Source: a virus. From it: DNA of 40,272 bases. This document shows positions 3,720-28,886 of this stretch, piece by piece. A model generated the notes under the pieces. The model made no database searches. It worked only from the letters and a program-made list of their open reading frames with translations, and was not told where the DNA came from. Numbering within the stretch: position 1 is the stretch's first letter; every line of letters starts with the position of its first letter. The stretch is from IMG/VR virus record IMGVR_UViG_3300042453_000475, positions 1 to 40,272 of that record, one strand, 5' to 3'. A program made the position numbers and the translations under genes.

Positions 3720-6635
3720 ATGCCGCAGACCCGCACTTACAACCGATCCTTCGCAGGCGGCGAGGTGTCGCCCGAGATGTGGGGCCGGCTGGATGACATC
3801 AAGTTCCAGACCGGCGCTGCCACGATGCGGAACTTCATTGCGACGCCGCAGGGTCCGGCAGAGAACCGGGCCGGCACGGCGTTCGTGCGCGAGGTCAAGG
3901 ACAGCACCAAGCGCACCCGCTTGATTCCGTTCACGTTCAGCACCACCCAGACGATGGTGTTGGAGATGGGTCCGAACTACTTCCGATTCCATACGCAGGG
4001 TGCGACGCTCGGGCCCGGCAGCCCATCTGCATATGTGCCTGGCACTACGGTCACGATTACTCAATCGCAGCAGGCAACTGTCACCATCACGATTGCAAGT
4101 CCCGGAGTCGTGACGTGGACTGGTCACACACTGTCAAACGGAGATCGCGTCATTCTGTCAACGACAGGAGCATTGCCAACTGGATTGCTGCCTGGAGTCG
4201 TGTACTACGTCGTGAACTCCGCCTTGAATACGTTCAGGTTGTCGCTGACATCTGGCGGAACGGCTATCGACACAACCGGGTCGCAGTCAGGAACACACAC
4301 GGCCAGCACGCCGACCGTCATCAACTGGTCGGGACATGGCCTTGCAAACGGAGCAGAAGTCGGATTCACAACTACTGGATCGTTGCCGACAGGCATGCTG
4401 CCTGACACCGTGTACTACGTCATCAACGCGGCGACGAACACGTTTGAAATCGCGACCGCAGCCGGCGGCATTCCAATCGTCACAAGCAGCGCAGGCAGTG
4501 GCGTCCACACTGGCGCGACGCCGTATGCAATTGGATCTCTGGTTTCGTCCGGAGGCGTCAACTATTACTGCATTGCCAAGGCGATCAACAAGACGCCGCC
4601 CAATGCGACGTATTGGTATCCACTTCCTGCCGGCATCTATGAGATCCCGACCCCGTATGCCGAGGCAGACCTGTTCGATATCCACTACGTGCAGTCGGCT
4701 GACGTGCTGACGCTGGTGCATCCGAACTATGCGCCGCGTGAGCTGCGCAGGCTTGGTGCCACGACCTGGACCCTGACCACGATCAATTTCGCGGCGTCTG
4801 TTACTGCGCCGACCGGCGTGACTGCGACCTTGACTGGACTCGGATCAGGCATCGACTATTCGTATGTGGTGACGGCAGTCGCGGATGACGACGTCAGCGA
4901 AAGTGTGCAGAGCAGTTCCGCCACGGTGTCTGTTGATTTCGGCAATTCGACTCCAGGATTCGTGACCATCGCATGGACTGCTGTCGCCGGCGCATCACGC
5001 TACAACGTCTACAAGTTGCAGGGCGGGTTGTATGGATTCATCGGCCAGACGGCTTCAACGTCCATCAACGACGACAACATCGCGCCCGATACTGGCATCA
5101 CGCCGCCTGTGTATGACACCGTCTTCAGCAGCGTCAACAACTACCCCGGCGCGGTCAGTTACTTCGAGCAGAGGCGTCTGTTTGCTGGCACGAACAACGC
5201 GCCGCAAACGATCTGGATGACCAAGAGCGGCACCGAAAGCGACATGTCGTATTCGATCCCGACAGAGGACACGGATCGAATCAAGTTCCGCGTCGCCGCT
5301 CGAGAGGCAAACACGATTCGCCACCTTGTCCCGCTGACGCAGCTGCTCGCATTGACGAGCGCGGCGGAATGGCGGATCAGTCCGGTCAATAGCGATGTCA
5401 TCACGCCGACCACAATTTCGGTGCGGCCGCAGTCATACGTTGGTGCCAGCAATGTCCAGCCGTCCATCGTGAATAACACGGTGGTTTATGGCTCTGCCCG
5501 TGACGGCCATGTGCGTGAACTTGGCTATTCGTGGCAGGCCAGCGGATTCGTGACCGGCGACCTGTCGCTGCGCGCAACGCACCTGTTTGATGGACTGTCC
5601 ATCACGGACATGTGCTACAGCAAGGCTCCGCACCCATTGCTTTGGTTCATCTCGAGCAATGGCGACATGCTGGGCCTGACCTATATCCCGGAGCAGCAGG
5701 TGGCTGCCTGGCACAGGCACGACACGGACGGTGACTTTGAGTCTTGTACTGCTGTTGCCGAGGGCACCGAGGATGCGCTCTACGTCATCGTGAAGCGCAC
5801 AATCGGAGGCAACACGAAACGGTACGTCGAGCGGTTCGCAACGCGGTCCGTGTCCACGCTTGAGAACTGTTTCCACGTCGATAGCGGCCTGACGTACAAC
5901 GGCACGAACACGACGGCAACGACGGTCACGGTTACGGGCGGCACGGTTTGGACGCCGGCAGAGGTGCTGACGATCACTGCCAGCAGCGCGATCTTCCAGT
6001 TCCCGGCCACGACCGATGTCGGTGACGTGATCGTGCTTACTGGATCAGATGGCACGAAGTACAGGCTCACGATCCTGTCCACGACCAGCACGACGGTAGC
6101 GACTGCGCGAGTGGACAAGACGCTGGCGGTTGCCCTGCGAGGCGTGGCCACGGCGGTCTGGGCTTGGGCTCGCGACACGGTCAGCGGCCTATCGCACCTC
6201 GAGGGCAAGACCGTCAGCGTGCTGGGTGATGGCGCTGTCATGCCGCAGGTTGTGGTGACTGGTGGATCGGTCACGATCCAGCGTCCGTCCACAATCATCA
6301 CGGTGGGCCTGCCATACGAGAGCGACTTGCAGACGTTGCCGTTGACGTTGCAGATTGAGGCATTCGGTCAGGGCCGAGCCAAGAACATCAACGAGGCGTT
6401 CGTGCGCGTCTACAGGTCAAGCGGTCTGTTTGTGGGACCGAGCGAAAACAAGTTGGTTGAGGCCAAGTGGCGCACGACGGAACCATACGGATCGCCGCCA
6501 TCGCTGAAGACTGACGAGGTTGGCGTGAAGCTGACGCCGACCTGGCAGCAAAATGGTCAAATCTATGTGCGGCAGGTTGATCCGCTGCCGCTGACGATTG
6601 TTGGACTCACCCTCGAGGTCGCTATCGGAGGCTGA
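3720..6635 (+). CDS. Tail nozzle / tail tubular protein B-like protein with inserted domains
   Basis: A 971-residue protein beginning QTRTYNRSFAGGEVSPEMWG and containing GPAENRAGTAFVREV, the signature of large nozzle-like tail proteins in BPP-1-type podoviruses. The core should form the tail tube below the adaptor. Inserted near the N-terminus are two related beta repeats (about residues 130-193 and 198-264) sharing LPTG.LP..VYYV(V/I)N..TNTF; then a segment with NYYC and NATYWYPLP at about 264-305 that resembles carbohydrate-binding modules; then a fibronectin-III-like domain at about 363-460. These extras could touch host surface glycans during adsorption. The gene is about 170 residues longer than T7 gp12, which the inserts may explain. 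Confidence 0.85.
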   Translation: MPQTRTYNRSFAGGEVSPEMWGRLDDIKFQTGAATMRNFIATPQGPAENRAGTAFVREVKDSTKRTRLIPFTFSTTQTMVLEMGPNYFRFHTQGATLGPGSPSAYVPGTTVTITQSQQATVTITIASPGVVTWTGHTLSNGDRVILSTTGALPTGLLPGVVYYVVNSALNTFRLSLTSGGTAIDTTGSQSGTHTASTPTVINWSGHGLANGAEVGFTTTGSLPTGMLPDTVYYVINAATNTFEIATAAGGIPIVTSSAGSGVHTGATPYAIGSLVSSGGVNYYCIAKAINKTPPNATYWYPLPAGIYEIPTPYAEADLFDIHYVQSADVLTLVHPNYAPRELRRLGATTWTLTTINFAASVTAPTGVTATLTGLGSGIDYSYVVTAVADDDVSESVQSSSATVSVDFGNSTPGFVTIAWTAVAGASRYNVYKLQGGLYGFIGQTASTSINDDNIAPDTGITPPVYDTVFSSVNNYPGAVSYFEQRRLFAGTNNAPQTIWMTKSGTESDMSYSIPTEDTDRIKFRVAAREANTIRHLVPLTQLLALTSAAEWRISPVNSDVITPTTISVRPQSYVGASNVQPSIVNNTVVYGSARDGHVRELGYSWQASGFVTGDLSLRATHLFDGLSITDMCYSKAPHPLLWFISSNGDMLGLTYIPEQQVAAWHRHDTDGDFESCTAVAEGTEDALYVIVKRTIGGNTKRYVERFATRSVSTLENCFHVDSGLTYNGTNTTATTVTVTGGTVWTPAEVLTITASSAIFQFPATTDVGDVIVLTGSDGTKYRLTILSTTSTTVATARVDKTLAVALRGVATAVWAWARDTVSGLSHLEGKTVSVLGDGAVMPQVVVTGGSVTIQRPSTIITVGLPYESDLQTLPLTLQIEAFGQGRAKNINEAFVRVYRSSGLFVGPSENKLVEAKWRTTEPYGSPPSLKTDEVGVKLTPTWQQNGQIYVRQVDPLPLTIVGLTLEVAIGG

Positions 6636-7398: not shown

Positions 7399-9156
7399 AT
7401 GCCGACCGTACCTACCACGTTCGTACCGCAGGTCGCGCCGGGAGGCGCAGGCGACATCGGAATGGTGCAGGCACCGCAGGTGGCAGTCACCGAGAACCTT
7501 GCCGCCCAGCAGCAGGTGCAGTTTGGCCGTGCAATGACGCAGGCCGGCGACGTTGCATTCCGCATCGGCAGTGCGATTCAGGACGCGATTGACGAGTCAA
7601 AAGCCAAAAACTTTGAATTGGAGTCGATGCGGCAATTCAATAGCGTTCTGCGAGGTCAGGATGGTTACTTGCGGTCATCCGGTCTGGCAGCTGCGGAGCG
7701 ATTTGCGCAAACGGAAGATGCGATGGCGCAGATCGTTGGTGGAAGCCTTGACAGTCTTGACAACGATACACAGAAGTCCATGTATCGAAACGTCATGGCT
7801 CGCCACATGATGTCTGCGCAGACGCAGATGTTGAATCACCGCGATGCCGAGGTCAAGAAAGCAACGGTCGAATCCGCTCGTGCGCGTGGAGAGCAGTTCA
7901 TTCAATTGGCAATTGAGGACCACGAGAATCGCGATGTTCCGATGTCTGATTATGCGATCAACCTCGGCGTCGCCGAAAACGAGATCCGCACCGCTGGCAG
8001 GGCACTTGGCTTTACAGAGGATTCTCCACAGATGAAGGCTTTGGTCATTCAGGTGCGCACGCAGGTCACGGATGGCGTTGTCAATCGGTTGATGCTCGAG
8101 AGCGACTATGACGAGGCATACAAGTTTGTGAAGGCGGAACTGAAGGCCGGCAACCTCGAGGAGAAGGCCGCGCAGCCATTGCTGTCCAGCATCGACGCCA
8201 ACCGTGACCGATGGATGATCGACCAGTACGCGACCACGATCCGTGGCTATGGCAGGGTCGGGATGCCTGACGATGAGGCCAACAACCCGCAGGAAGCGCC
8301 AGGATCGCTCCGGGACGCTTTGGACATTGCGGACGGCATCAAGGATCAGGAGATCCGCAAGGGCGTCCAGGCGGCTCTACGGACGCAATACGGGCAGGAG
8401 GAGGCTCTCCAGCGGCAGGAGTATGGCCTGCTGATCGACCGTATGGAGCAATTCCTTGCCGCGCCCGGCAATACGGTGGCGAATGTCCCGCCGTCTGCTT
8501 GGGGCCGGCTCAAGCCACAGGATCAGGCCAAGTTCCTCAAGGCCCAGCGACAGACGGATGAGCTGGATGTCATGGAGGAGATCGCACGCAATCCAGGCGT
8601 TCTGACTCGGGAATACCTCGAGGACAACCGTGGCAGGATGACCCGAGACACCTATATCAAGCTACTCGGCGACGTGAATGCGCCAGGCAAGGTGATCGCA
8701 GCCACGGTCGATGCCGACCAGTTGGAGGCAACGCTGTTTGCCAACAACATGACGAAGATGGCAGATCCGAAGTCGGATGAGGACAAGCAGGCTTCGCTCA
8801 TGTTCCGCAATTCGGTCAAGACCATGATTGACGCCGAGCAGGAGCGACAGAAGCGGCCACTGTCACGCGAGGAGAAGCAGCGGGTGATCGACGGTGCGAT
8901 CATTCAGTACGGTGAGCAGGCGTATGTCGAACGCAGTTGGTGGTGGGACAAGCAAATGAGCCTCGGTGCAATGACGCCAGAGCAGCGTCAATCCGCATAC
9001 GTCATGGTCGGAGATGCGCAGGTAAAGTTGATGGACATGCCGCAGACATGGATTACTGGAACTGCACTGCCGGCTTTCCGCAAGGCAGGCGTCAGCAATC
9101 CGACGATGACTCAACTCGCCGACTATTGGATTCGTAAGGGCAAGCCAGCACAATGA
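7399..9156 (+). CDS. Ejection (internal virion) protein, gp15-type
   Basis: A 585-residue, mostly helical protein rich in Gln, Glu, Arg and Ala, with no signal peptide and no clear membrane segment. It begins MPTVPTTFVPQVAPGGAGDI and contains LRGQDGYLRSSGLAAAERF near residue 78, a pattern common in middle internal-core proteins of podoviruses. It lies between the small gp14-type gene and the giant gene and overlaps the latter's start by four bases (ATGA), so translation is probably coupled. By analogy with T7 gp15 it would form part of the ejected tube in the periplasm. No enzymatic motif was found. Confidence 0.78.
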   Translation: MPTVPTTFVPQVAPGGAGDIGMVQAPQVAVTENLAAQQQVQFGRAMTQAGDVAFRIGSAIQDAIDESKAKNFELESMRQFNSVLRGQDGYLRSSGLAAAERFAQTEDAMAQIVGGSLDSLDNDTQKSMYRNVMARHMMSAQTQMLNHRDAEVKKATVESARARGEQFIQLAIEDHENRDVPMSDYAINLGVAENEIRTAGRALGFTEDSPQMKALVIQVRTQVTDGVVNRLMLESDYDEAYKFVKAELKAGNLEEKAAQPLLSSIDANRDRWMIDQYATTIRGYGRVGMPDDEANNPQEAPGSLRDALDIADGIKDQEIRKGVQAALRTQYGQEEALQRQEYGLLIDRMEQFLAAPGNTVANVPPSAWGRLKPQDQAKFLKAQRQTDELDVMEEIARNPGVLTREYLEDNRGRMTRDTYIKLLGDVNAPGKVIAATVDADQLEATLFANNMTKMADPKSDEDKQASLMFRNSVKTMIDAEQERQKRPLSREEKQRVIDGAIIQYGEQAYVERSWWWDKQMSLGAMTPEQRQSAYVMVGDAQVKLMDMPQTWITGTALPAFRKAGVSNPTMTQLADYWIRKGKPAQ

Positions 9157-12100
9157 TTCCGTTTACACCAGACGAGCGCCGCGCAGAGTTCGCACCATCG
9201 CAGAACCAGGGCGGCCCGGTCGATCCGGATGTTTTGGCTGTCATCGGACAGCCGGTGTCGCAAGAGCCTGCGATGTCGCAGCCAACGATTCCAGAGCCCG
9301 TTGATCCGGACGTGCTTGACATCGTGAACCGGGACCAGATCCCGTTGATGTCATCGCTAATGAGCGCGTCCCGTGTGAACCCTGACCAGGCTGCGGAGGC
9401 ATCACGGCTCGGTGCGCGTATCGGTGTCGGGCAGGACGTTGCGCTTCGGAACATGGACGAGGTGCGTCAGCGCGCGTTTATGGCCGACATGCAGGCGCGT
9501 GACATCGCGCGGACAAACCCGGTGCTGGCATCGTTCCTGATGGACAGGACGTTTGCCAACCAGGCAAGCGATGACGTTGGAACGCTGGAGAAACTTGCGC
9601 AGACAATGGATTATGTTTCGGAGCTGCCGAGCGAATTCATGGCAGGCTTCCGAACAGGAAGAATTACAACCGAGGCTGGGTTGCTTGGCACAACCGCACA
9701 ATTGCGTGGAAAGCCAACCGAAGATGAACAGCGCCAATGGAATGCATACCAGCAGGAGTTGGCGGATCTTGCCGGAGATACTGGTTTCTGGCGTCAAACC
9801 GGAGAACTGCTTGGACAGATTGAGCGCACCGCAGAAGAATCAGTAAAAGGCGCTGTGATTGGTGGCGGTATTGGTGCTGGCGGAGCATTGCTCGCCGGGC
9901 AATTTGGACCACAAATCTTCTTGCCGGAAGAAATAGTCACGGTGCCTGCTGCAACCATCTTTGGAATGGGCGCTGGTGCAACTAGCGCAATGATTTCGAC
10001 ATCTGGACGAGTGATGGCCGGCAACAACTACATGAAGAATCTGGATGCCGGAATGGACCCAGATGTTGCTCGCGTTACTGCGCTTGGCGTTGGATTGCTT
10101 GGCGGTGCGCTTGAGGTATACGGTGTCAAGTTGCTGGCCGCTCCGTTCAAGGGCGTGTGGTCGCGGATGGTGATGGATGCCGCCAATGAGGCGGTGACAC
10201 GCCCAACCGTTGGCAAGGCGATCGCTAACTTCGGCACGTCATATGCCAAGGGTGTCGGTGGTGAAATTGGTACTGAAGTCAGCCAGCAGGTTGTCGAAAT
10301 CGCGTTCGATGAAATGGGTGGTTATATCTCTGATCCAGAGGCATTCCAATCCAGACTTGCCACACGTGAAGGCCGCCAGAGCATCAAGAATGAGTTGACG
10401 GATGTAATTGTTCGGACTGCGCTTGGCGTGTCCGCAATCGGCGGCATCGGCCCAGGAATCAACATTGCGATTGATTTGCGACGTGCAAAGCAAACAACGA
10501 AGCAAACCAAGTTCTTTGAGAGCCTGACCCAAAACGCGACCGAGAGCAAGGTGCGCGGTCGTGATGTCGGCGCATACGAGCGTTTCGTGGCTGCGCAGGC
10601 GGCTGGCACCAACGCCGAGACCGTGTTCGTGGACGGAGCCACCATGCGCGGCGTCCTCGAGCAGGCCGCCGTGACCGACTCGCAGCTTGACGCCGTGGTG
10701 CCAGGGCTGGCCCAGAAGGTGCGCGATGCCGCTACCACGGGCAGCGATGTGACGATCCCGACCGCGCAGTACGCGGCCCGGCTGGCCGGCACGGATCTTG
10801 GCAACGCATTGCTGCCACATATGCGGCTCGCTCCGGACGCGATTAGCGCGACCGAGGCGCAGGCCGTTGAGGCGTCACGTGCGGAGATTGTCGCCCAGGC
10901 CGAGAAGTTGATGGAGGAGAAGCAGACGGTCGATGCCGCGTTCGTGCAGTCGGCGCAGGCGGTCGAGGATTCGATCTTCAACGCGGTGAAGGCGGTCGGC
11001 TATTCAGACGTGCAGGCCCGCACATACGCGAAGATCCACCAGGCGATGGCGGTAGTAGATGCCGCTGCGATGGGCATCACGCCGGAGGAATACAACCGCA
11101 AGTATCCGCCGACGATTGTTGGCGAAGGGATGCCAGTTCAGGCGATGGAGCAGGCGGCGCGTATTGATACGAATTACATGGCTGCCGTCGAGCGCGGCGA
11201 CATGGCGACCGCGCAGCGCATGGTGGACGAGGCGGCAAAGGCAAGTGGACTAACGGAAATTGTTTGGCGTGGAGATCGTAACGCAGCACAAATCACGGAA
11301 TATCGGCGAGGCGCACGACGAGAACCCGGAATCTTCACGACTACAAATCAGTATGTCGCTGACAAATATGCTGGCAAAGAAGGTGGTGCCAGACGCTTCT
11401 ATGTTGGCGGACGAACGCTTGACTTGACAAATCAAACACCAGAAGTCATTGCATGGATTCGTAAATGGTCTGAAGATGGGAATTGGGATTTTGTTGATCG
11501 TGCTTCTGGAGAATCCGTTACTCCTGAAGACGCTGTTATGAGCGGTCGCCTTTATGACTGGGAAGGAACAGGGAGCGGACGAAGGTGGAAAGATATTCAG
11601 GCAACCGCTGCGGAAGATGGATACGACATTGTCAAGTTGATTGATGAGGACCCGGATGCGGTAGATGGAACATTCATTTCTACCGTTGTCTTGAACGAGA
11701 ACAAGATCAAGCTTGCAGACGCCGTAACCCGCGACGAGGCTGGCAATATCGTCCCGCTGTCGCGCCGGTTCAATGTTGGTAGCCCAAAGATTTTTGAGCA
11801 GGCCGCCATCTCCAGCATGGACGCCGACTACATGACTGCCGTTGAGCGCGGAGACACCGCGACCGCGCAACGGATGGTTGATGATGCCGCATACCAGGCC
11901 GGGTACACAATTGAAGCAGAACATCAAACCAATCAATGGTTTTCGGAGTTCAAAGCAGGAGAACTTGGATTTCACATTGGCGCTGGCATTCCCGAAGGAA
12001 TGCTAGGCCAGCGCACGATGAAACTTCGCGCACGGATTGCTAATCCGTTGCGCCTCAAGGATCTCGGTGTGTGGTCAGCAGATCGGGTGATCTACTCTTT

Positions 12101-15100
12101 GCCCGAAGCAATTATTACGGAGCGTCAGAGATCCGAACTGCTAGACGAAATACCAGAAGAAATGCGTGCTGGTTCGCCGGAAAGCGGCGACATGTTTGCG
12201 TACTACGATGCACTTGCTCCAATTCGTGATTTTCTAGTTAGCAAGGGTTATGACGGAATCGTTTATAAGAACGAAGCAGAGGGTCGTGAAGACTCCTATA
12301 TCGCCTTTGATTCGGAACAACTGAAATCCGCCGACCCCGTAACCCGCGACGAGCAGGGCAACGTCGTCCCGCTGTCGCGCCGGTTCGACATCACCAGCCC
12401 CAAGGTGTTTGAGCAGGCGGCAACTGGGCCGCGCTTGATGGCAGTACACAATCTGTCCGCTGACAATCTGCAATTCGCCGAGCGGATGGGTGGTCTTGCG
12501 GTTCCTTCAATCGGAGTCATTACAGAGGAAGCAGGCGGCGTTGAGGGCTTTGGTGAAATCACGCTGCTCGGTACACGCGAGATGGCCGAGCCTCGTACAA
12601 CGCCAGTATTTGAGGCCGATGCATATTCGGCTAGGTTCCCACGCCCGGAATGGCCGAAAGTTTCGACTGCAAAGGCAGATGCCGTTGTCGCGTCAATTCG
12701 TGATCTACAAACCGAGTTTGATGACGTAGGACTGGTTGATAGCACATTTAATTTTCTCGTCAACGAACCAGATGCCAACAAATTAGCGGAGCGTTGGTTG
12801 CGTTCGCCAGCAATCATGGCGATGTACTTGCGAGAGCGTGGAATTGAAATCGCTCCAATACTGGAAACACGACCAACATTGTCGCGCCTGACATGGGAGG
12901 CAATTGATCGTTTGACTCCAATTTATTTGGCAGTCGATCAACAGCAGGCATATGACGTGATGGAGGCTAGTCCTGAATACGCTGCTCTCAAGATTGCATA
13001 CGCCGATGAAGTGCGTAGGCAATATCAGGGCGTTGCAGAAGAACTACCAGAAGGACGTGTTGAAGAATGGGCAAAACAATTCACGCCCACGACACTGCAA
13101 CGATTGAGCAGGGATGTTCAAGAAACTAACCGTCAGCGTGTGGCGCGGGAAGCGACAGCGAATGCGTTGACAGAGAAACTGGAACCGTCATACGCGGAAT
13201 ACAAGACCTGGGTTGATAAGAAAACGCGAGGACAGTTTGGTGCGCCATTCCTTCGTGATGGCAAACTAAAGCGTCCATATACGCTTGGAAATATCGTTGA
13301 CTTTATGGCTTCTGCTAAGGTCAAGGGTGAGGAAAAGGGATTGACATTTGGAGCTGGTGCAGCACGGGCAAAGCGTGCACGTGCATTCCCGGATCTTGAA
13401 GAAATGCGAGAAGCCGCAAAGACGGCCATTGTCAATCCGGATGAATACAGCAAGGCGCGAAAGGAATCGGAAAAAACGCTTGAGGCGTATCGTCTAGCGG
13501 TTGTGGACTACACGCGGCTTACTGATTGGCGTGGAAAGCAAGACACATGGGCTGCAATGGATGCGTCTATGAAGGCGCTGGCTCGGTATGGAAAGCGCAA
13601 GAAGCGAAGCGCAAAGGCAATGCGCGAAGCATTGAGCCGTGAGCAATTTGCCATTGGCAGCATGCCAGCGGAAACTATCGAACAGGCCATTGATGCCGCT
13701 GATGCATTGTTCAATGCGCCAGTGCCATACTTTGAAGCCAAGCCACAGCGTGCGGTGCGACTGGATGAGTTTGCTGGCGCAGTAATTCCGACAGATGCAT
13801 CACAGCAAACCCGCGACATTCTTGAGCGCAGTGGCATCCCATACATGTCATATATCGCTGGGAATGAACAGGATCGCCAAAGGGCGGTGCGCCAGATGTC
13901 TGTTTCTCCAGAGGCGCGTGGTGAAGTGCTGTTTCAGGCCATGCCGTCACCTGGCCCAGCCCGAGGCGGACACGACCCGCGCACGCTAACAACTGTCATC
14001 AACAAGGGTGCCGATGTCACCACCCTGTTCCATGAACTCATCCACTACAAAGTGGAAGTTTATCTTCGCATTGCTAGTGCGCCCGACGCGCCGGCGAGGA
14101 TCAAGGCTGACCTGGACGAACTGTTCAAGTTCATGGGCGTTGCCGGCGCAACCTTCGAGGAACGGCTGGCGACGTACAACGGGCTGACCTTCGAGCAGCG
14201 CAGGCCGCTCGAAGAGAAGATCACCTACAACTTTGAGGACTACCTGCTCGAGGGCAAGGCTCCCAGCGTCGAGATGCGCGGCGTGTTCGACAGGATCGCG
14301 GCATGGATGCGGCGCGTGTACAAGTCGCTGCGCGACGATCTGAACGCGATCTACCGCCGGGAGTTCGGCACTGACCTTCCGATCCTGACGCCGGAGATCC
14401 GGTCCGTCTTCGATCGGATGCTCGCGAGCGAGGAGCAGATCAAGCGTGCCGAGGCCGTGAACAACATGAAGGGTCTGTTCCAGACGCAAGAGCAGTCTGG
14501 CATGGACGATACGGAGTGGGCTGCATACCAGGCCATGCAGAAGGAGGCCACGGACGTGGCGATCGCGGCCCTGACTACCGACACGATGAAGCAGGTGGAG
14601 TGGATGAGCAACGCTCGCAGCAAGAAGCTGAAGGAGTTGCAGAAGGCCCATGACACCCAGCGGAAGGAAGTGCGCGACCAAGTCATGGCCGAGGTGCGGC
14701 AGGAGCCCATCTATCGTGCGATGGAGTACCTGAAGCGCGGCACCCTGATCGGCCCGGACGGCAGCGAAACCACGGTCGAGGGCGTCCACAAGATCAACAC
14801 GGCGCTGGCCCGCGAGTTCGTGCCGGGCCTGGACATGGCGAAGATGGGCCGTGGCAAGTACGGCTACCTAGCCGAGGACGGACTGCACCCGGATGTAGTG
14901 GCCGAGATGTTTGGCTTCCCCGCCGGCTCGGCCCTGCTACAGGCGCTGGCCGACGCCAAGCCCATGCGCGAGGTGGTGGACGCCCGGACGGACGAAATCA
15001 TGGTCCGGGACTACTCCGAGATGGGCGACCCGAAGGCGCAGGAGGCGGCGGTCAACCGTGCCATCCATAACGAAGCCAGAGCCCGTCTGGTGGCCGTTGA

Positions 15101-17780
15101 GGCCCGGTGGCTGTCCAAGGCCACCCAGCCCGTCCGGGTCATCCAGGAGGCCGCTAGGCAGGCTGCCGTGGACGCGGTCGGAAACACAGTTATCCGCGAC
15201 CTGCGGCCAGACCAGTACGCGGCGGCGGAGGCTAGGGCGTCACGGGATGCCATTGAGGCGGCCCGAGGAGCCGATACCAAGCGCCTGCGGGAGCGGTACG
15301 GTGCGGACGCCACCCGCGAGCAGATCATGCTCCAGGCCAAGCGGCAGCAGCTCTACCAGAACGCGCTGGCGACCGAGGCCCAGAAGGCCGATGACGCGAT
15401 TCAGAAGGGACTGAAATACCTCCGCAGGGTGCTGCGCGACAGCAACCGCCAGCGGATGGGTGCGGACTATGCCGATCAGATCACCGGCATTCTGGACAGG
15501 TTTGAACTGGCACCTATCAGCCGGACAGAGGCTGCCCGCCGGGCCGACTTGGCCGCGTGGGTGGAAGCCAAGCGGGCCGAAGGACTTGAGCCAGACATTG
15601 ATCCTGAAGTGCTGGCTGAATCGAACCGCAGGCCGTGGCGCAACCTGACTGTCACGGAATTCAACGCGGTCATGGATGCCGTGAAGCAGATTGAGTTCAT
15701 GGGCAAGAATGAGCGGAAGATCAAGTTGGCTGCGGAGAAGGCCGACTTCGAGAAGGTGCGCGACGAGATTGTGACGAGCGTGATCGCCAATGCCGGCGAC
15801 CGCAAGGCGAACGCCCGGACCGCGACCACGAACATCGGTCGAGCCATCACCACGCTCAAGGGTTTCATCGGCGCACACCTGAAGGCGGCATCCATCGCCC
15901 GGATCCTGGACGGAGCCCAGGATGGAGGCCCGGTGTGGAACTACCTGATTCGTTCGGCAAACGATGCCGGCGACAAGGAAACGACCATGCGGGCGCAGGC
16001 GACCGAGCGCCTGACGGCGATGTTCGCGCCGATCTTCAAGCTCGGCAAGATGGGTGGCAAGGGCCAATACTTCCCGACCGTGGATCGCAGTTTCAACCGC
16101 GAGGCTAGGCTTGTCATTGCCCTGAACATGGGCAACGACGGCAACATTCAGCGGCTTCTCAATGGCGAGAGTTGGTCGATTGAGCAGATCACGCCGATTC
16201 TCCAGTCGTTGACGGAGGATGAATGGAACCTCGTTCAGCAAGTTTGGGACTACTTCGAGACATACCGACCGGAGATCGCTGCGAAGGAGCGCGAGTTGTA
16301 CGGAAAGGAGCCGAACTGGGTTGAGCCGAAGCCATTGATCGTGCAGACGGCGGATGGCAAGACGGTCACGCTGCGAGGTGGCTATTACCCGATCAAGTAC
16401 GACCCTCGAGCATCCATGCGTTCGGAAACGATGTCCGACGCAGAGGTTGCCAAGCGAGACCTGGCTGGTGCATTCACCAGCGCGACCACGCGCCGCAGTT
16501 ACACAAAGGCTCGCGTTGAGGAGTTGAAAGATAAACGACCACTGCTCTACACGTTGGCTGGCATGTACGGCGGCGTCAATGAGGTCATCCATGACCTGTC
16601 GTGGCACCGATGGCTGATTCAGGCTAATCGCCTCATGCGCTCTCAGGCGTTTGACGAGGCCGTGCGTGAAAAGTATGGCCCAGAGTTCATCGGCCAGTTG
16701 AAGACTTGGATCAAGGATGTCGCTGCCGGCGAGCGCGGTGTGCAGAACGAAGCCGAGATGGCCCTGAACTTCCTGCGCCAGGGCATCAGTTCCGCAGGCC
16801 TCGGCTTCAACGTGGTCAGCGCGGCATTGCAGATCACAGGCTTCAACCAGTCCATCGTCAGGGTTGGCGTGAAGTGGATCGGTCGTGGCATCGCCGCCGT
16901 CGCACAGTCGCCGTTGCTGTCTATGAAGATGGTCAACGAGAAGTCTGATTTCATGGCGAATCGTTCTCGCACGCAGTTCCGCGAGTTGAACGAACTGCGG
17001 AACATGGTGCAGGGCGACAGCGTTGCCATGCGCCGCATCAAGATGGGCACCTATTTCCTGATGATGCGGATGCAGCGGATGGTCGATGTCCCGACTTGGA
17101 TCGGTGCCTACGAGAAGGCACTGTACGAGGGCCGCGACGAGGACACTTCCATCGCGCTGGCTGACCAGGCCGTGATCGATTCGCAGGGCGGCGGCATGCT
17201 GAAGGACTTGAGCCGTGTTGAGCGTGGCGGTGCCGGCCTGAAGTTGTTCACGGTGTTCTACGGTTACATGAACACGGTCTACAACATGGCTGCGGTTCAG
17301 ACCATGACTGCCAAGAACAAGGGCAAGCTGGCTGCCGACTATGCGATGCTGTTCGTGGTTCCTGTCGTGCTGGGCCAGTTGATCCGAAAGGCGATGGTGC
17401 CAAAGACGGAGGACGAGCCCGAAGACCTCGAGGACATTGCCCGCAAGTTGGCTGCCGAGCAGTTGTCATACTTGATGGGCACGATGGTCATCGTCCGCGA
17501 GTTTGGCGAGATCAGCAAGATCGTTGCTGGTGCCGAAGGACCGCGCATGGGATACGGCGGCCCTGCCGGCCTGCGAGCGGTTGGCGAGACATACAACTTC
17601 GCGACGCAGGCAAGCCAGGGCGAATTCGACAAGGCATTCCGAAAGTCTGCCGTCAACCTCATCGGCGCGTTTACTGGCCTGCCATCTGCACAGATCAACC
17701 GCACGCTGGATGGGTTGGATGCGCTATACGAGGGCGAGACAGAGAACGTCCTTGCTCCTGCAACAGGCGTGCGGCGTTGA
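9153..17780 (+). CDS. Giant multi-domain ejected protein (ART x2, metallopeptidase, LPD38-like end)
   Basis: A 2875-residue protein, the largest in the genome, in the place of T7 gp16. From the N-terminus: a helical region with Gly- and Ala-rich hydrophobic segments around residues 230-330; two tandem ADP-ribosyltransferase-like units (about 700-875 and 917-1080), the second with GFHIG, ARIANPLRLKDLG and SKGYDGIVYKNE; a module opening HNLSADNLQFAERMGGL (about 1095) and ending near EVLFQAMP (1597); a zinc metallopeptidase-like domain with HELIH at 1627-1631 and a candidate third ligand Glu at 1695; long helical regions; and a C-terminus resembling the LPD38 domain of phage polyvalent proteins. 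It would enter the host with the DNA. GC falls sharply across the ART units and the module after them. No transglycosylase motif was seen. Confidence 0.88.
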   Translation: MIPFTPDERRAEFAPSQNQGGPVDPDVLAVIGQPVSQEPAMSQPTIPEPVDPDVLDIVNRDQIPLMSSLMSASRVNPDQAAEASRLGARIGVGQDVALRNMDEVRQRAFMADMQARDIARTNPVLASFLMDRTFANQASDDVGTLEKLAQTMDYVSELPSEFMAGFRTGRITTEAGLLGTTAQLRGKPTEDEQRQWNAYQQELADLAGDTGFWRQTGELLGQIERTAEESVKGAVIGGGIGAGGALLAGQFGPQIFLPEEIVTVPAATIFGMGAGATSAMISTSGRVMAGNNYMKNLDAGMDPDVARVTALGVGLLGGALEVYGVKLLAAPFKGVWSRMVMDAANEAVTRPTVGKAIANFGTSYAKGVGGEIGTEVSQQVVEIAFDEMGGYISDPEAFQSRLATREGRQSIKNELTDVIVRTALGVSAIGGIGPGINIAIDLRRAKQTTKQTKFFESLTQNATESKVRGRDVGAYERFVAAQAAGTNAETVFVDGATMRGVLEQAAVTDSQLDAVVPGLAQKVRDAATTGSDVTIPTAQYAARLAGTDLGNALLPHMRLAPDAISATEAQAVEASRAEIVAQAEKLMEEKQTVDAAFVQSAQAVEDSIFNAVKAVGYSDVQARTYAKIHQAMAVVDAAAMGITPEEYNRKYPPTIVGEGMPVQAMEQAARIDTNYMAAVERGDMATAQRMVDEAAKASGLTEIVWRGDRNAAQITEYRRGARREPGIFTTTNQYVADKYAGKEGGARRFYVGGRTLDLTNQTPEVIAWIRKWSEDGNWDFVDRASGESVTPEDAVMSGRLYDWEGTGSGRRWKDIQATAAEDGYDIVKLIDEDPDAVDGTFISTVVLNENKIKLADAVTRDEAGNIVPLSRRFNVGSPKIFEQAAISSMDADYMTAVERGDTATAQRMVDDAAYQAGYTIEAEHQTNQWFSEFKAGELGFHIGAGIPEGMLGQRTMKLRARIANPLRLKDLGVWSADRVIYSLPEAIITERQRSELLDEIPEEMRAGSPESGDMFAYYDALAPIRDFLVSKGYDGIVYKNEAEGREDSYIAFDSEQLKSADPVTRDEQGNVVPLSRRFDITSPKVFEQAATGPRLMAVHNLSADNLQFAERMGGLAVPSIGVITEEAGGVEGFGEITLLGTREMAEPRTTPVFEADAYSARFPRPEWPKVSTAKADAVVASIRDLQTEFDDVGLVDSTFNFLVNEPDANKLAERWLRSPAIMAMYLRERGIEIAPILETRPTLSRLTWEAIDRLTPIYLAVDQQQAYDVMEASPEYAALKIAYADEVRRQYQGVAEELPEGRVEEWAKQFTPTTLQRLSRDVQETNRQRVAREATANALTEKLEPSYAEYKTWVDKKTRGQFGAPFLRDGKLKRPYTLGNIVDFMASAKVKGEEKGLTFGAGAARAKRARAFPDLEEMREAAKTAIVNPDEYSKARKESEKTLEAYRLAVVDYTRLTDWRGKQDTWAAMDASMKALARYGKRKKRSAKAMREALSREQFAIGSMPAETIEQAIDAADALFNAPVPYFEAKPQRAVRLDEFAGAVIPTDASQQTRDILERSGIPYMSYIAGNEQDRQRAVRQMSVSPEARGEVLFQAMPSPGPARGGHDPRTLTTVINKGADVTTLFHELIHYKVEVYLRIASAPDAPARIKADLDELFKFMGVAGATFEERLATYNGLTFEQRRPLEEKITYNFEDYLLEGKAPSVEMRGVFDRIAAWMRRVYKSLRDDLNAIYRREFGTDLPILTPEIRSVFDRMLASEEQIKRAEAVNNMKGLFQTQEQSGMDDTEWAAYQAMQKEATDVAIAALTTDTMKQVEWMSNARSKKLKELQKAHDTQRKEVRDQVMAEVRQEPIYRAMEYLKRGTLIGPDGSETTVEGVHKINTALAREFVPGLDMAKMGRGKYGYLAEDGLHPDVVAEMFGFPAGSALLQALADAKPMREVVDARTDEIMVRDYSEMGDPKAQEAAVNRAIHNEARARLVAVEARWLSKATQPVRVIQEAARQAAVDAVGNTVIRDLRPDQYAAAEARASRDAIEAARGADTKRLRERYGADATREQIMLQAKRQQLYQNALATEAQKADDAIQKGLKYLRRVLRDSNRQRMGADYADQITGILDRFELAPISRTEAARRADLAAWVEAKRAEGLEPDIDPEVLAESNRRPWRNLTVTEFNAVMDAVKQIEFMGKNERKIKLAAEKADFEKVRDEIVTSVIANAGDRKANARTATTNIGRAITTLKGFIGAHLKAASIARILDGAQDGGPVWNYLIRSANDAGDKETTMRAQATERLTAMFAPIFKLGKMGGKGQYFPTVDRSFNREARLVIALNMGNDGNIQRLLNGESWSIEQITPILQSLTEDEWNLVQQVWDYFETYRPEIAAKERELYGKEPNWVEPKPLIVQTADGKTVTLRGGYYPIKYDPRASMRSETMSDAEVAKRDLAGAFTSATTRRSYTKARVEELKDKRPLLYTLAGMYGGVNEVIHDLSWHRWLIQANRLMRSQAFDEAVREKYGPEFIGQLKTWIKDVAAGERGVQNEAEMALNFLRQGISSAGLGFNVVSAALQITGFNQSIVRVGVKWIGRGIAAVAQSPLLSMKMVNEKSDFMANRSRTQFRELNELRNMVQGDSVAMRRIKMGTYFLMMRMQRMVDVPTWIGAYEKALYEGRDEDTSIALADQAVIDSQGGGMLKDLSRVERGGAGLKLFTVFYGYMNTVYNMAAVQTMTAKNKGKLAADYAMLFVVPVVLGQLIRKAMVPKTEDEPEDLEDIARKLAAEQLSYLMGTMVIVREFGEISKIVAGAEGPRMGYGGPAGLRAVGETYNFATQASQGEFDKAFRKSAVNLIGAFTGLPSAQINRTLDGLDALYEGETENVLAPATGVRR
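11145..12422 (+). repeat. Tandem ADP-ribosyltransferase cassettes with duplicated boundaries
   Basis: Two units lie head to tail inside the giant ejection gene. Each opens with an EQAA motif and a linker (YM.AVERGD.ATAQRMVD) at about 11172-11238 and 11826-11892, and closes with VPLSRRF. Exact 17-base (11722-11738 / 12337-12353) and 21-base (11751-11771 / 12366-12386) repeats are 615 bases apart. The boundaries are GC-rich and nearly identical; the cores are different and AT-richer. By hand count, G+C is 28 of 60 at 11341-11400 and 25 of 60 at 11461-11520, against 42 of 60 at 14941-15000. Confidence 0.85.
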
Positions 17781-27065: not shown

Positions 27066-27126
27066 CGGACACATTTCGGACACATCCATTGCGCCTACGA
27101 GAATATGGCAAGATTGTGGAATATGG
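27066..27126. repeat. Direct repeats between the divergent early promoters
   Basis: CGGACACAT occurs at 27066-27074 and again at 27077-27085, 11 bases apart (one helical turn). GAATATGG occurs at 27101-27108 and 27119-27126. Pairs of short repeats on one helical face between divergent promoters are typical of operators. Which protein would bind is unknown; the winged-helix and HTH proteins of the left operon are candidates. The rest of 27057-27130 holds nothing else I can see. Confidence 0.6.
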
Positions 27127-27129
27127 GTG

Positions 27130-27158
27130 TTGACAAGATGCTGGCGATGGATTACCGT
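27130..27158 (+). promoter_or_regulatory. Right early promoter
   Basis: TTGACA (27130-27135), then 17 bases, then TACCGT (27153-27158). The -10 is weak but keeps T1, A2 and T6. Six bases later comes GCGCAATACCGCGCA, then GGAGA and the ERF start at 27192. The match in layout to the left promoter, including the six-base gap and the shared leader, makes this call firmer than the -10 alone would. Confidence 0.68.
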
Positions 27159-27191
27159 GGTGCCGCGCAATACCGCGCAATGGAGATACAC

Positions 27192-28073
27192 ATGCCTGAA
27201 CCCAAGACATCACTTGCCAGCGCGTTGCTGGCCGCACAGAGCGCCCTGCCCAGCGTGGGCAAGGACTCCAAGAACAGCTTCCACCACTACGCCTACACGA
27301 GCAGTGAGGCCATGATCGGCGCGTGCCGGACCGTGCTGCACGGTGCCGGCCTGGTCCTGCGCCGGGCCGGCTGGAAGTTTGATGGGACAGCCGAGGGTGG
27401 CGTCGTGACAAGCCAGTTCATTCTGTCATGCCCGGCCAGTGGCGAGAGCGTCACCGACGAGGTTGGCTGGGTGGCGATCCCGGAGAAGGGCCGTCCCATC
27501 GATAAGGCGCTTGCCGGCGCCCTGACCGCCAGCATGGGCTACTACCTGCGTGACCTGCTGCTCGTTCCGCGCGAGGACGAGAACGAGATGGATAAGCGCG
27601 ATGACCGAACGTTCGAGCCTCGCAAGGCTGCGCCAGCACCAGCAGCCCGCCAGACGCAGCAGGAGGCTCCACGATCCATTCCGGCTCCGAAGGCGGCTCC
27701 GGTATCGCCGAAGGCGTCGGAGCCAGCCAAGGCGGCTGCTGGAGCGTATAACGAGGTTCTGGCATCTAGGCCAGCCAAGGACTGCGCATGGCGTGGCGGT
27801 ATGGTGGTCAAGAAGGTCGGCCAGGGCAAGGCCACCAAGAACGGCGGCCAGCGGTGGCCGATCCTGTTCGAGTCTGACGCAGGCGAGGAGTGGGCGAGCT
27901 GCTTCGACGAGAACATCATGCTGGCCGCGCAGGACTGCATGGGTGGCGATCCGGTCGATGCATTTGTTCAGTCGGGTCAGTACGGGCTCACCCTGTACGG
28001 CATCCGCATAACGGTAAACTCCGAGCAGCCGGCGGCGGCGACGGTGCCAGCCGAGGACGAGATTCCATTCTGA
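27192..28073 (+). CDS. erf: ERF-family single-strand annealing protein with SSB-like C-terminal tip
   Basis: A 293-residue protein; the start at 27192 has GGAGA six bases before it, while an ATG at 27105 would lie upstream of the promoter. Residues about 5-125 match the ERF family (LAAQSALPSVGKDSKNSFHH, YTSSEAMIGACRTVL and LAGALTASMGYYLRDLL), which anneals complementary single strands in phage recombination. A Pro- and Ala-rich linker follows, then a second domain from about 190 (CAWRGGMVVKKVGQGKATKN, GGQRWPILFESDAGEEW) that may be an OB-like fold. The last residues EDEIPF closely match the acidic tip of bacterial SSB (DDDIPF), which recruits repair and replication proteins. No separate ssb gene was found. 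Confidence 0.87.
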   Translation: MPEPKTSLASALLAAQSALPSVGKDSKNSFHHYAYTSSEAMIGACRTVLHGAGLVLRRAGWKFDGTAEGGVVTSQFILSCPASGESVTDEVGWVAIPEKGRPIDKALAGALTASMGYYLRDLLLVPREDENEMDKRDDRTFEPRKAAPAPAARQTQQEAPRSIPAPKAAPVSPKASEPAKAAAGAYNEVLASRPAKDCAWRGGMVVKKVGQGKATKNGGQRWPILFESDAGEEWASCFDENIMLAAQDCMGGDPVDAFVQSGQYGLTLYGIRITVNSEQPAAATVPAEDEIPF

Positions 28074-28143: not shown

Positions 28144-28365
28144 ATGGTACGCGATGAATTGCAGGCACAGATTGCAGAACTAACAGAGAAGATTTCGAAA
28201 TTGGAACGCACGCTGATGATCGTGTTTCTGGCTGGATCACGGGCCACACAGGTCGCAATGAATGCCGGACTTGATCCGAAGATTCCAGAAGACGAATTGG
28301 CAAGCCTGATGGCGATGATTGAACGTGGCGAATTGAAGATCAACATTCCGAAGGAGACAGCATGA
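28144..28365 (+). CDS. Small coiled-coil protein
   Basis: A 73-residue protein. Residues 4-30 form a heptad-like helix (ELQAQIAELTEKISKLERTL), then a short hydrophobic stretch LMIVFLAGS and a polar end with GLDPKIPEDELASLMAMIER. Its stop overlaps the next start by four bases. The AT content is a little higher than in neighbours. I do not recognise a family; the coiled coil suggests an oligomer. Confidence 0.68.
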   Translation: MVRDELQAQIAELTEKISKLERTLMIVFLAGSRATQVAMNAGLDPKIPEDELASLMAMIERGELKINIPKETA

Positions 28366-28886
28366 GCAACGCAATCACGCGACTGTACGAGGCGACTGCT
28401 GCGGCGCAGGAACTGGAGGAGATGATCCAGGCCAGCGCGGAATCCGGCGGAGACATCACCGAACTGGATGGACACTTCGACATACTCGCTCGGCAGGCTG
28501 ACTCGCTGCCGGCGGCGATCGACGATGTGCTCTCGCTGGTGCGTGACATCGAGGCGCGAGCCGAGGCACGCAAGGCAGAGGCTGACCGGATGCGTCAGCG
28601 GGCCAAGCGCGACCAGGCGGTAGCCGATTGGTTCCGGTCGCACGTCCTGCGCGTCATGCAGGCAGAGGGCATGAAGAAGCTAGAGACATCTCGCTGGCGC
28701 GTCACGCTCGCGATGCCAGGTGGCAAGCAGGCGCTCGAGATTGTGGACGCGATCCCGGATGCTTATTACCGCGAGGTGGTCACGCGAGAGATCGACAAGG
28801 AAGCAATCCGTGCGGCGCTTGAGGGCGGTAATGTCCTGCCGTTTGCGCGTCTGGTCGAGAAGCAGACCACGTTGAGGATTTCCTGA
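28362..28886 (+). CDS. Gp157-like phage protein
   Basis: A 174-residue protein matching the siphovirus Gp157 family: an N-terminal helix around LYEATAAAQELEEM, a long coiled coil (RDIEARAEARKAEADRMRQR), then MKKLETSRWRVTLA and AIPDAYYRE with KEAIRAALEGGNVLPFARLV at the end. The family is found beside recombination genes in many phages; a link to phage resistance in Streptococcus has been reported, but the biochemical role is unclear. Its place after ERF fits a recombination partner. ATGA overlap with the gene before and TGATG with the gene after. Confidence 0.85.
   Translation: MSNAITRLYEATAAAQELEEMIQASAESGGDITELDGHFDILARQADSLPAAIDDVLSLVRDIEARAEARKAEADRMRQRAKRDQAVADWFRSHVLRVMQAEGMKKLETSRWRVTLAMPGGKQALEIVDAIPDAYYREVVTREIDKEAIRAALEGGNVLPFARLVEKQTTLRIS

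Follow-up and report, generated by a model that had tools for sequence, protein, structure and literature searches.

Polyvalent proteins, in which many unrelated effector domains are joined and which are encoded beside virion genes, were described in phages and conjugative elements by Iyer et al. 2017 (PMC5512222). ADP-ribosyltransferases (ARTs) are common in these proteins with up to 12 copies per protein, PBECR and metallopeptidase domains occur, and mosaicism was reported, with about 50 combinations in Helicobacter jhp1044 and with cassette recombination suggested for a kinase locus. The window analysed here is the whole of a virus record of 40,272 base pairs (bp) (IMG/VR record IMGVR_UViG_3300042453_000475), which encodes a giant protein resembling the polyvalent ones in that several disparate effectors stand in one large protein beside virion genes. 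Its residues 665-1090 are occupied by two tandem units, each with an unrelated ART core held between conserved N-side and C-side flanks (N flank and C flank), and the cores appear to be exchanged between related phages by recombination.

Several other described systems are comparable in part. In polymorphic toxins (CDI, Rhs, MafB; PMC3482391), effector domains are also swapped beside conserved sequence; they differ in layout, with a variable toxin at the C terminus after a constant N part, whereas the modules here are internal (about residues 670-1600, followed by a conserved C part at 1601-2875), flanked on both sides, tandem or absent, and carried by a phage protein of virion type. In the relaxed recombination of temperate phages (PMC3945230), diverged DNA is exchanged by Rad52-like recombinases, including Erf of phage D3, independently of RecA, and a minimum of about 30 bp is quoted for Red-beta. 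Domains are likewise swapped between mosaic ejection proteins (PMC8954989). Different from both, the exchange described below takes place within one gene, at repeated frame-keeping flanks that hold 26 core families. Polyvalent proteins, their ARTs and their mosaicism are thus already known (PMC5512222, PMC9503650, PMC8954989), whereas empty units, a second level of joints and the use of paired flanks as exchange arms appear to be new: no account of such a role for paired flanks turned up in literature searches, linkers are not mentioned in the text of PMC5512222, and exchange-arm flanks, silent-site evidence, empty units and the xQAA joint were not found in it by term search. How domains are exchanged without breaking a protein of about 3,000 residues had been open, and short flanks and joints give a concrete, testable answer.

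Layout and fold of the two units

Each unit consists of a joint, an N flank of 23 amino acids (aa), a core of low guanine-plus-cytosine (GC) content unrelated to the other core, a C flank of 22 aa and a joint, as listed below with the giant gene.

9153..17780, + strand: giant polyvalent/ejection-type protein of 2,875 aa, ortholog of Bbp10 of phage BPP-1
11145..11159, + strand: joint 1, MEQAA, residues 665-669 (joint motif)
11166..11234, + strand: N flank of unit 1, DTNYMAAVERGDMATAQRMVDEA, residues 672-694 (modelled as a helical hairpin)
11235..11717, + strand: ART1 core, residues 695-855 (ART fold; arginine, in WRGD, at the place of the family's histidine)
11718..11783, + strand: C flank of unit 1, DAVTRDEAGNIVPLSRRFNVGS, residues 856-877 (repeat and unit survey)
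11793..11807, + strand: joint 2, FEQAA, residues 881-885 (joint motif)
11820..11888, + strand: N flank of unit 2, DADYMTAVERGDTATAQRMVDDA, residues 890-912 (repeat, unit survey and model)
11889..12332, + strand: ART2 core, residues 913-1060 (similar in fold to AcrIF11 and a chain of the cyanophage A4 pre-ejectosome)
12333..12398, + strand: C flank of unit 2, DPVTRDEQGNVVPLSRRFDITS, residues 1061-1082 (repeat and unit survey)
12408..12422, + strand: joint 3, FEQAA, residues 1086-1090 (joint motif)

On the C side, the two copies (11715-11806 and 12330-12421) lie 615 apart and share 80% identity across 92 nucleotides (nt), with exact stretches of 17 and 23 bases; on the N side, they (11175-11237 and 11829-11891) lie 654 apart and share 83% identity across 63 nt. 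Exact repeats of 17 and 21 bases, 615 apart, had been named in an earlier note made from this DNA alone; they are real and lie where they were placed, the distance of 615 holding for the C side and the longer stretch being 23 bases rather than 21. The low-GC cores between GC-rich boundaries, also named there, are found here and are general in the 58 filled units collected from relatives (see below), with GC contents of 0.68, 0.65, 0.50 and 0.60 for the N flank, C flank, core and whole gene, respectively; core GC was below both flanks in 56 of the 58 and below the unit's own gene in all of them. The contrast drawn with 42 GC bases in 60 downstream fails immediately after the region (0.48-0.58 to about 13,000) and is true only further on. 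The tandem arrangement is not an assembly artefact, since two independent contigs are 100% identical to the record here, IMGVR 3300044858_000678 over the entire giant gene and 3300042556_000014 as far as residue 971, inside ART2.

AlphaFold2 models of the ART1 and ART2 units had predicted local distance difference test (pLDDT) values of 80 and 85 and predicted template modelling (pTM) scores of 0.78 and 0.79, respectively. Both models share one plan, in which the N flank is a confident helical hairpin, the core is rich in strands and the C flank forms short strands and a helix, both flanks being mostly confidently folded. Among solved structures, the ART2 model matched AcrIF11 (6KYF), an anti-CRISPR ART, best, and it also matched a pre-ejectosome chain of cyanophage A4 (9K3A), each with an E-value of 1.3e-3 and a probability of 0.99. 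The ART1 model matched viral ART-PolyVal models with E-values down to 1.3e-10 and structures in the PDB weakly (best E-value 0.09), the top ones including diphtheria toxin, NatT, MbcT, tankyrase and KptA. In hhalign comparisons, the core-only profiles of ART1 and ART2 were matched to relatives' ART cores of H type with probabilities of 95.8% and 98.7%, respectively; the direct profile comparison of ART1 with ART2 was negative, and by these profiles it is only other ARTs that link the two cores. Two ART-like domains had been claimed by the earlier note, which named structure prediction as the check and a lacking ART fold as the outcome that would speak against it; the ART fold was found for both units.

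Family assignment by sequence is less direct. ART2 matches ART-PolyVal (PF18760) in Pfam below the cut-off (26.1 vs 31.2 bits, residues 1028-1061) and ART1 has no Pfam match; the gathering score is passed by some relatives' units and by neither of these two, while 25 of 40 ortholog units or variable regions match the family at E-values of at most 0.01. No match was obtained in NCBIfam, and nothing credible came from searching the sequences of solved structures with the two ART profiles and with the entire protein. The two cores thus resemble ART-PolyVal/Tox-ART-HYD2 in fold and profile and differ in key residues, the H-Y-D pattern (H in strand 1, Y in strand 2 and D in strand 5) being kept by neither: by alignment only, ART1 has R for H, with WRGD where the family has HGT, and ART2 keeps H, with F-H at the Y expected in the clade. 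The H-F-H-D key residues of AcrIF11 (PMC12421852) resemble EHQT, GFHIG and D of ART2 by eye; AcrIF11 is small and free-standing, whereas ART2 is a module of a giant protein, for which no sequence match was found.

Exchange of cores between conserved flanks

Relatives were collected by a scan with the conserved C-terminal part only, which gave 53 loci, and by further scans, which brought the total to 178; an empty-unit protein was also used as a query in a collection scan. Residues 1-669 and 1601-2875 of the giant protein are common to relatives and the stretch between them is replaced, even between phages that are 97-98% identical downstream (loci L039 and L003). Different core families were present in 37 of 44 pairs with a backbone identity above 90%. 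At least one flank motif was found in 31 of the 38 orthologs with a complete middle. The 178 loci contain 65 distinct units with both flanks, among which 58 are filled, with 26 core families at 50% identity, and 7 are empty, the N flank being fused to the C flank with only 6-7 residues between them, as in AQRMVDEA-ARVQGQ-EAVTRDEQGNVVPLSRRF. Empty units precede different downstream modules, and unpaired flanks are few (10 listed). In the collections scanned, only 1 record of an isolate phage and no plasmid carried the flanks.

Near-identical cores were found in diverged phages. The ART1 core and that of locus L004 have 97% protein identity, as against 54% in the backbone segment compared. DNA identity of this pair is 33-51% upstream and 65-78% in the outer N flank, becomes 100% from GCGCAGCGCATGG onward, stays at 98-100% in most of the core, and falls to 68-86% in the C flank and 42-60% beyond. 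For shared cores overall, DNA identity is 23-52% outside and 98-100% inside, and the change falls within or close to the flanks and joints. Changepoints were fitted in 11 pairs with near-identical cores, 10 of which combine a core identity of at least 0.98 with unlike upstream DNA, and in all ten the N flank was less identical than the core, which places crossovers inside the flanks. N-side changepoints were spread from the flank to about 110 nt upstream. Among the eight single changepoints on the C side, six lay at +84 to +102, which is the joint, one at +134 and one in the flank at +54.

In 38 variable middles the joint motif [FLMI]xQA[AS] was counted 94 times, where shuffled sequences gave 6.5 ± 2.6, and its DNA form GAGCAGGCSGC was present in 54 of the 100 joints counted. 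Exchange proceeds at two levels, that of cores within flanks and that of whole modules between the joints. In the variable region of locus L008, an ART-like module without N and C flanks is bounded by LEQAA and MEQAA joints, which suggests that joints are enough to mark off a module. The DUF7178 domain (E-values to 4e-23) is likewise a module that recurs in the variable region, in L030, L031 and three other ortholog middles.

Rates of divergence were compared in pairs with unrelated cores at loci fetched by the C-terminal part only, i.e. without using the flanks. Amino acid identities were 0.82, 0.82, 0.29 and 0.62 for the N flank, C flank, core and backbone, respectively. At four-fold sites, and at backbone identities of 0.50-0.65, identity was 0.65 in the N flank, 0.78 in the C flank, 0.44 in the backbone and 0.33 in the core, and backbone windows with equal protein conservation reached only 0.51. 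By a bootstrap over 25 open reading frames (ORFs), the silent-site difference from the backbone was 0.34 (0.27-0.41) for the C flank and 0.21 (0.14-0.28) for the N flank. Flank similarity was near constant over backbone identities of 0.5 to 1.0, as expected of a freely exchanged element. Four-gamete site pairs amounted to 57% in the N flank and 65% in the C flank, against a mean of 26% and a maximum of 46% in 287 backbone windows. The earlier note had proposed that cores are exchanged by recombination between conserved linkers, and had named equal divergence of linkers and cores among relatives as the contrary result; the cores vary while the flanks stay, and the shared cores in diverged backbones, the changepoints near flanks and joints, the shuffled flanks and the empty units support the proposal. 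The boundaries are indeed conserved, and as linkers they need correction, being part of the ART unit itself (a hairpin before and a C-terminal tail after the core) and occurring across bacterial phyla.

Proposed mechanism and competing explanations

Taken as a whole, the explanation considered probable is that the region holds two tandem effector units of a modular polyvalent/ejection-type protein, each with an ART core between a helical N flank and a C flank, and with modules linked by the joints. Since the DNA of flanks and joints differs little from unit to unit and between related phages, it could be used as arms for homologous recombination, by which co-infecting phages or prophages would swap cores, whole units or adjoining modules with the reading frame kept. 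For two units of different core families, the median of the longest exact match is 18-20 nt on each side, against 6 nt in core segments, and a match of at least 20 nt is found in 45-52% of such unit pairs and in 0% of cores. Exchange would probably be driven by the phage's own Erf-type annealing protein, for which the following genes are relevant.

27105..28073, + strand: Erf-type single-strand annealing recombinase (PHROG E-value 3e-13; Pfam ERF 31.7 bits, cut-off 25)
28362..28886, + strand: Gam-like/Gp157 protein, usual partner of phage recombinases

A weakly predicted exonuclease is also encoded. As in relaxed phage recombination, the mosaic borders lie in diverged homology and a Rad52-like annealing gene is present.

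Several points weigh against this explanation. The typical exact matches (about 20 nt) are below the Red-beta minimum of about 30 nt, and shorter ones are marginal; some of the changepoints on the N side precede the flank by 90-110 nt, which corresponds to whole-module rather than core exchange; and the evidence for exchange is all comparative and comes from metagenome contigs, with pairs that are not independent. A PHI-like distance-based test within the flanks was not significant (p 0.25-0.30), so that the flanks look fully shuffled rather than blockwise, and the comparison of four-gamete fractions with the backbone took its place; recurrent mutation at a few sites may contribute to the flank pattern. 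On the side of the fold, Foldseek template modelling (TM) scores were low (0.2-0.5) and the AlphaFold2 alignments were shallow, and the activity of ART1 is uncertain because arginine replaces the family's histidine.

The alternative that survives best, though still somewhat unlikely, is exchange of whole modules at the joints only, by illegitimate recombination or very short homology, with the flanks as passengers rather than arms. It accords with the C-side changepoints, most of which are at the joint, with the several N-side ones upstream of the flank and with the recurrent joint DNA; it does not accord with the N flanks of the ten swapped pairs, whose lower identity than the cores needs breakpoints in flanks, nor with flanks that are internally shuffled.

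An improbable reading is that the flanks are simply the conserved ends of ART units under purifying selection, that the units were duplicated and inherited, and that the cores are just fast-evolving. Flanks in the form AVERGDMETAQRMVDEA / VIPLSERF accompany ARTs in Clostridia, Armatimonadota, Verrucomicrobiota and others, in genes that are prophage-like or element-like, from which it follows that the flanks play a part in the protein together with ARTs and that they predate this clade; the mostly confident folding of both flanks agrees with this reading. This account holds for what the flanks do in the protein but is false as a complete explanation: it leaves unexplained the silent-site conservation above equally conserved backbone and the four-gamete excess, and it does not fit diverged phages with near-identical cores, near-identical phages whose cores are unrelated, flanks that persist when the core is missing, or ARTs that occur without flanks (e.g. 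L008).

Slightly less probable still is conservation of the flank DNA for another DNA or RNA function, such as a site-specific recombination site, an RNA structure or an internal start. Near-fixed codons (CCG CTG TCG CGC; GAG CGC GGC GAC; GCG CAG CGC ATG GTG), where gene-wide usage is broader, speak for it. Against it, the changepoints do not converge on a single site, adjacent codons for one and the same amino acid are not equally conserved, and these protein flanks are found in other phyla as well. An assembly chimera or a diversity-generating retroelement is hardly credible: the relatives do come from metagenomes, and BPP-1 has such a retroelement for a tail gene, but the two independent contigs are identical here, the cores are unrelated proteins of different lengths and not copies altered by point mutation, and dozens of contigs show the pattern.

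Beyond the exchange of effector units through flanks and joints, a further proposal is put forward tentatively, as possible rather than likely: the flank pair may be a dedicated exchange platform, whose DNA, beyond its protein, is kept by selection for the loading, replacing and emptying of ART cores in frame by unrelated phages. Placed in an injected protein and run by the phage's own annealing recombinase, such a platform might be, equally tentatively, the viral counterpart of the polymorphic-toxin cassette system. The flanks also give a search handle for injected effectors, including ARTs missed by Pfam, as anything between the AVERGD..AQRMVDEA flank and the PLSRRF flank; the 26 core families, one of which resembles an anti-CRISPR ART, are candidates for early counter-defence.

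The giant protein and its surroundings

The phage of the record is a relative of the podovirus Bordetella BPP-1, and the ORF at 9153-17780 has 50% identity to bbp10 over residues 1601-2874. In the record as in BPP-1, a tail protein, an internal virion protein and an endolysin are encoded in this order before the giant protein and a tail protein after it, with tail proteins following downstream in the record. BPP-1, a laboratory phage, is an isolate that lacks the cassettes: in its bbp10 (L221, 3313-9471), about 170 unrelated residues without a flank unit stand at the same place between the conserved parts. The disparate domains combined in the giant protein, as in polyvalent ones, are the two ART folds, PBECR5, LPD22 and a zincin motif, among which the following are placed.

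12432..12914, + strand: PBECR5 RNase-like domain, residues 1094-1254 (Pfam, E-value 7.6e-17)
14031..14045, + strand: HELIH zincin-type motif, residue 1627, opening the conserved C part

PBECR5 directly follows ART2 as a third effector module in the row and had been overlooked by the earlier note; in the relative L019, it also stands behind another ART unit. Residues 700-1000 of Bbp10 served as a zincin seed (PMC3650047). From the synteny with BPP-1, the pre-ejectosome fold match and what is known of the family, the giant protein is probably packaged and ejected with the DNA, and ART1, ART2 and the PBECR5 nuclease would then modify host or defence targets as infection begins.

Some minor observations concern the flanks and joints elsewhere. 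In 32 polyvalent ORFs of loci L178-L220, DIR[YFW] was counted 26 times, where shuffled sequences gave 1.0 ± 0.9; it often comes right behind the C flank and is possibly a lineage-specific joint like xQAA of the record's clade. As motifs, xQAA or DIR[YFW] may be protease sites; a capsid-protease site was rejected for the xQAA joint, as the motif was not found in the record's other virion proteins. In the ORF from 6294 of L195, a Clostridiales metagenome-assembled genome, DRDYISAVERGDIPLSERFKTDNKDIRFQDRES reads as the start of the N flank fused to the C flank, by its sequence a second and different collapse of an ART unit. In L188 and L193, no obvious ART or C flank is seen in the sequence behind the N flank (an arrangement that one L193 protein has twice), and the N flank may also travel without ARTs. 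Among the neighbouring genes, the tail protein at 3720-6635 has 971 aa, against 712 in its PHROG model, which suggests an insertion.

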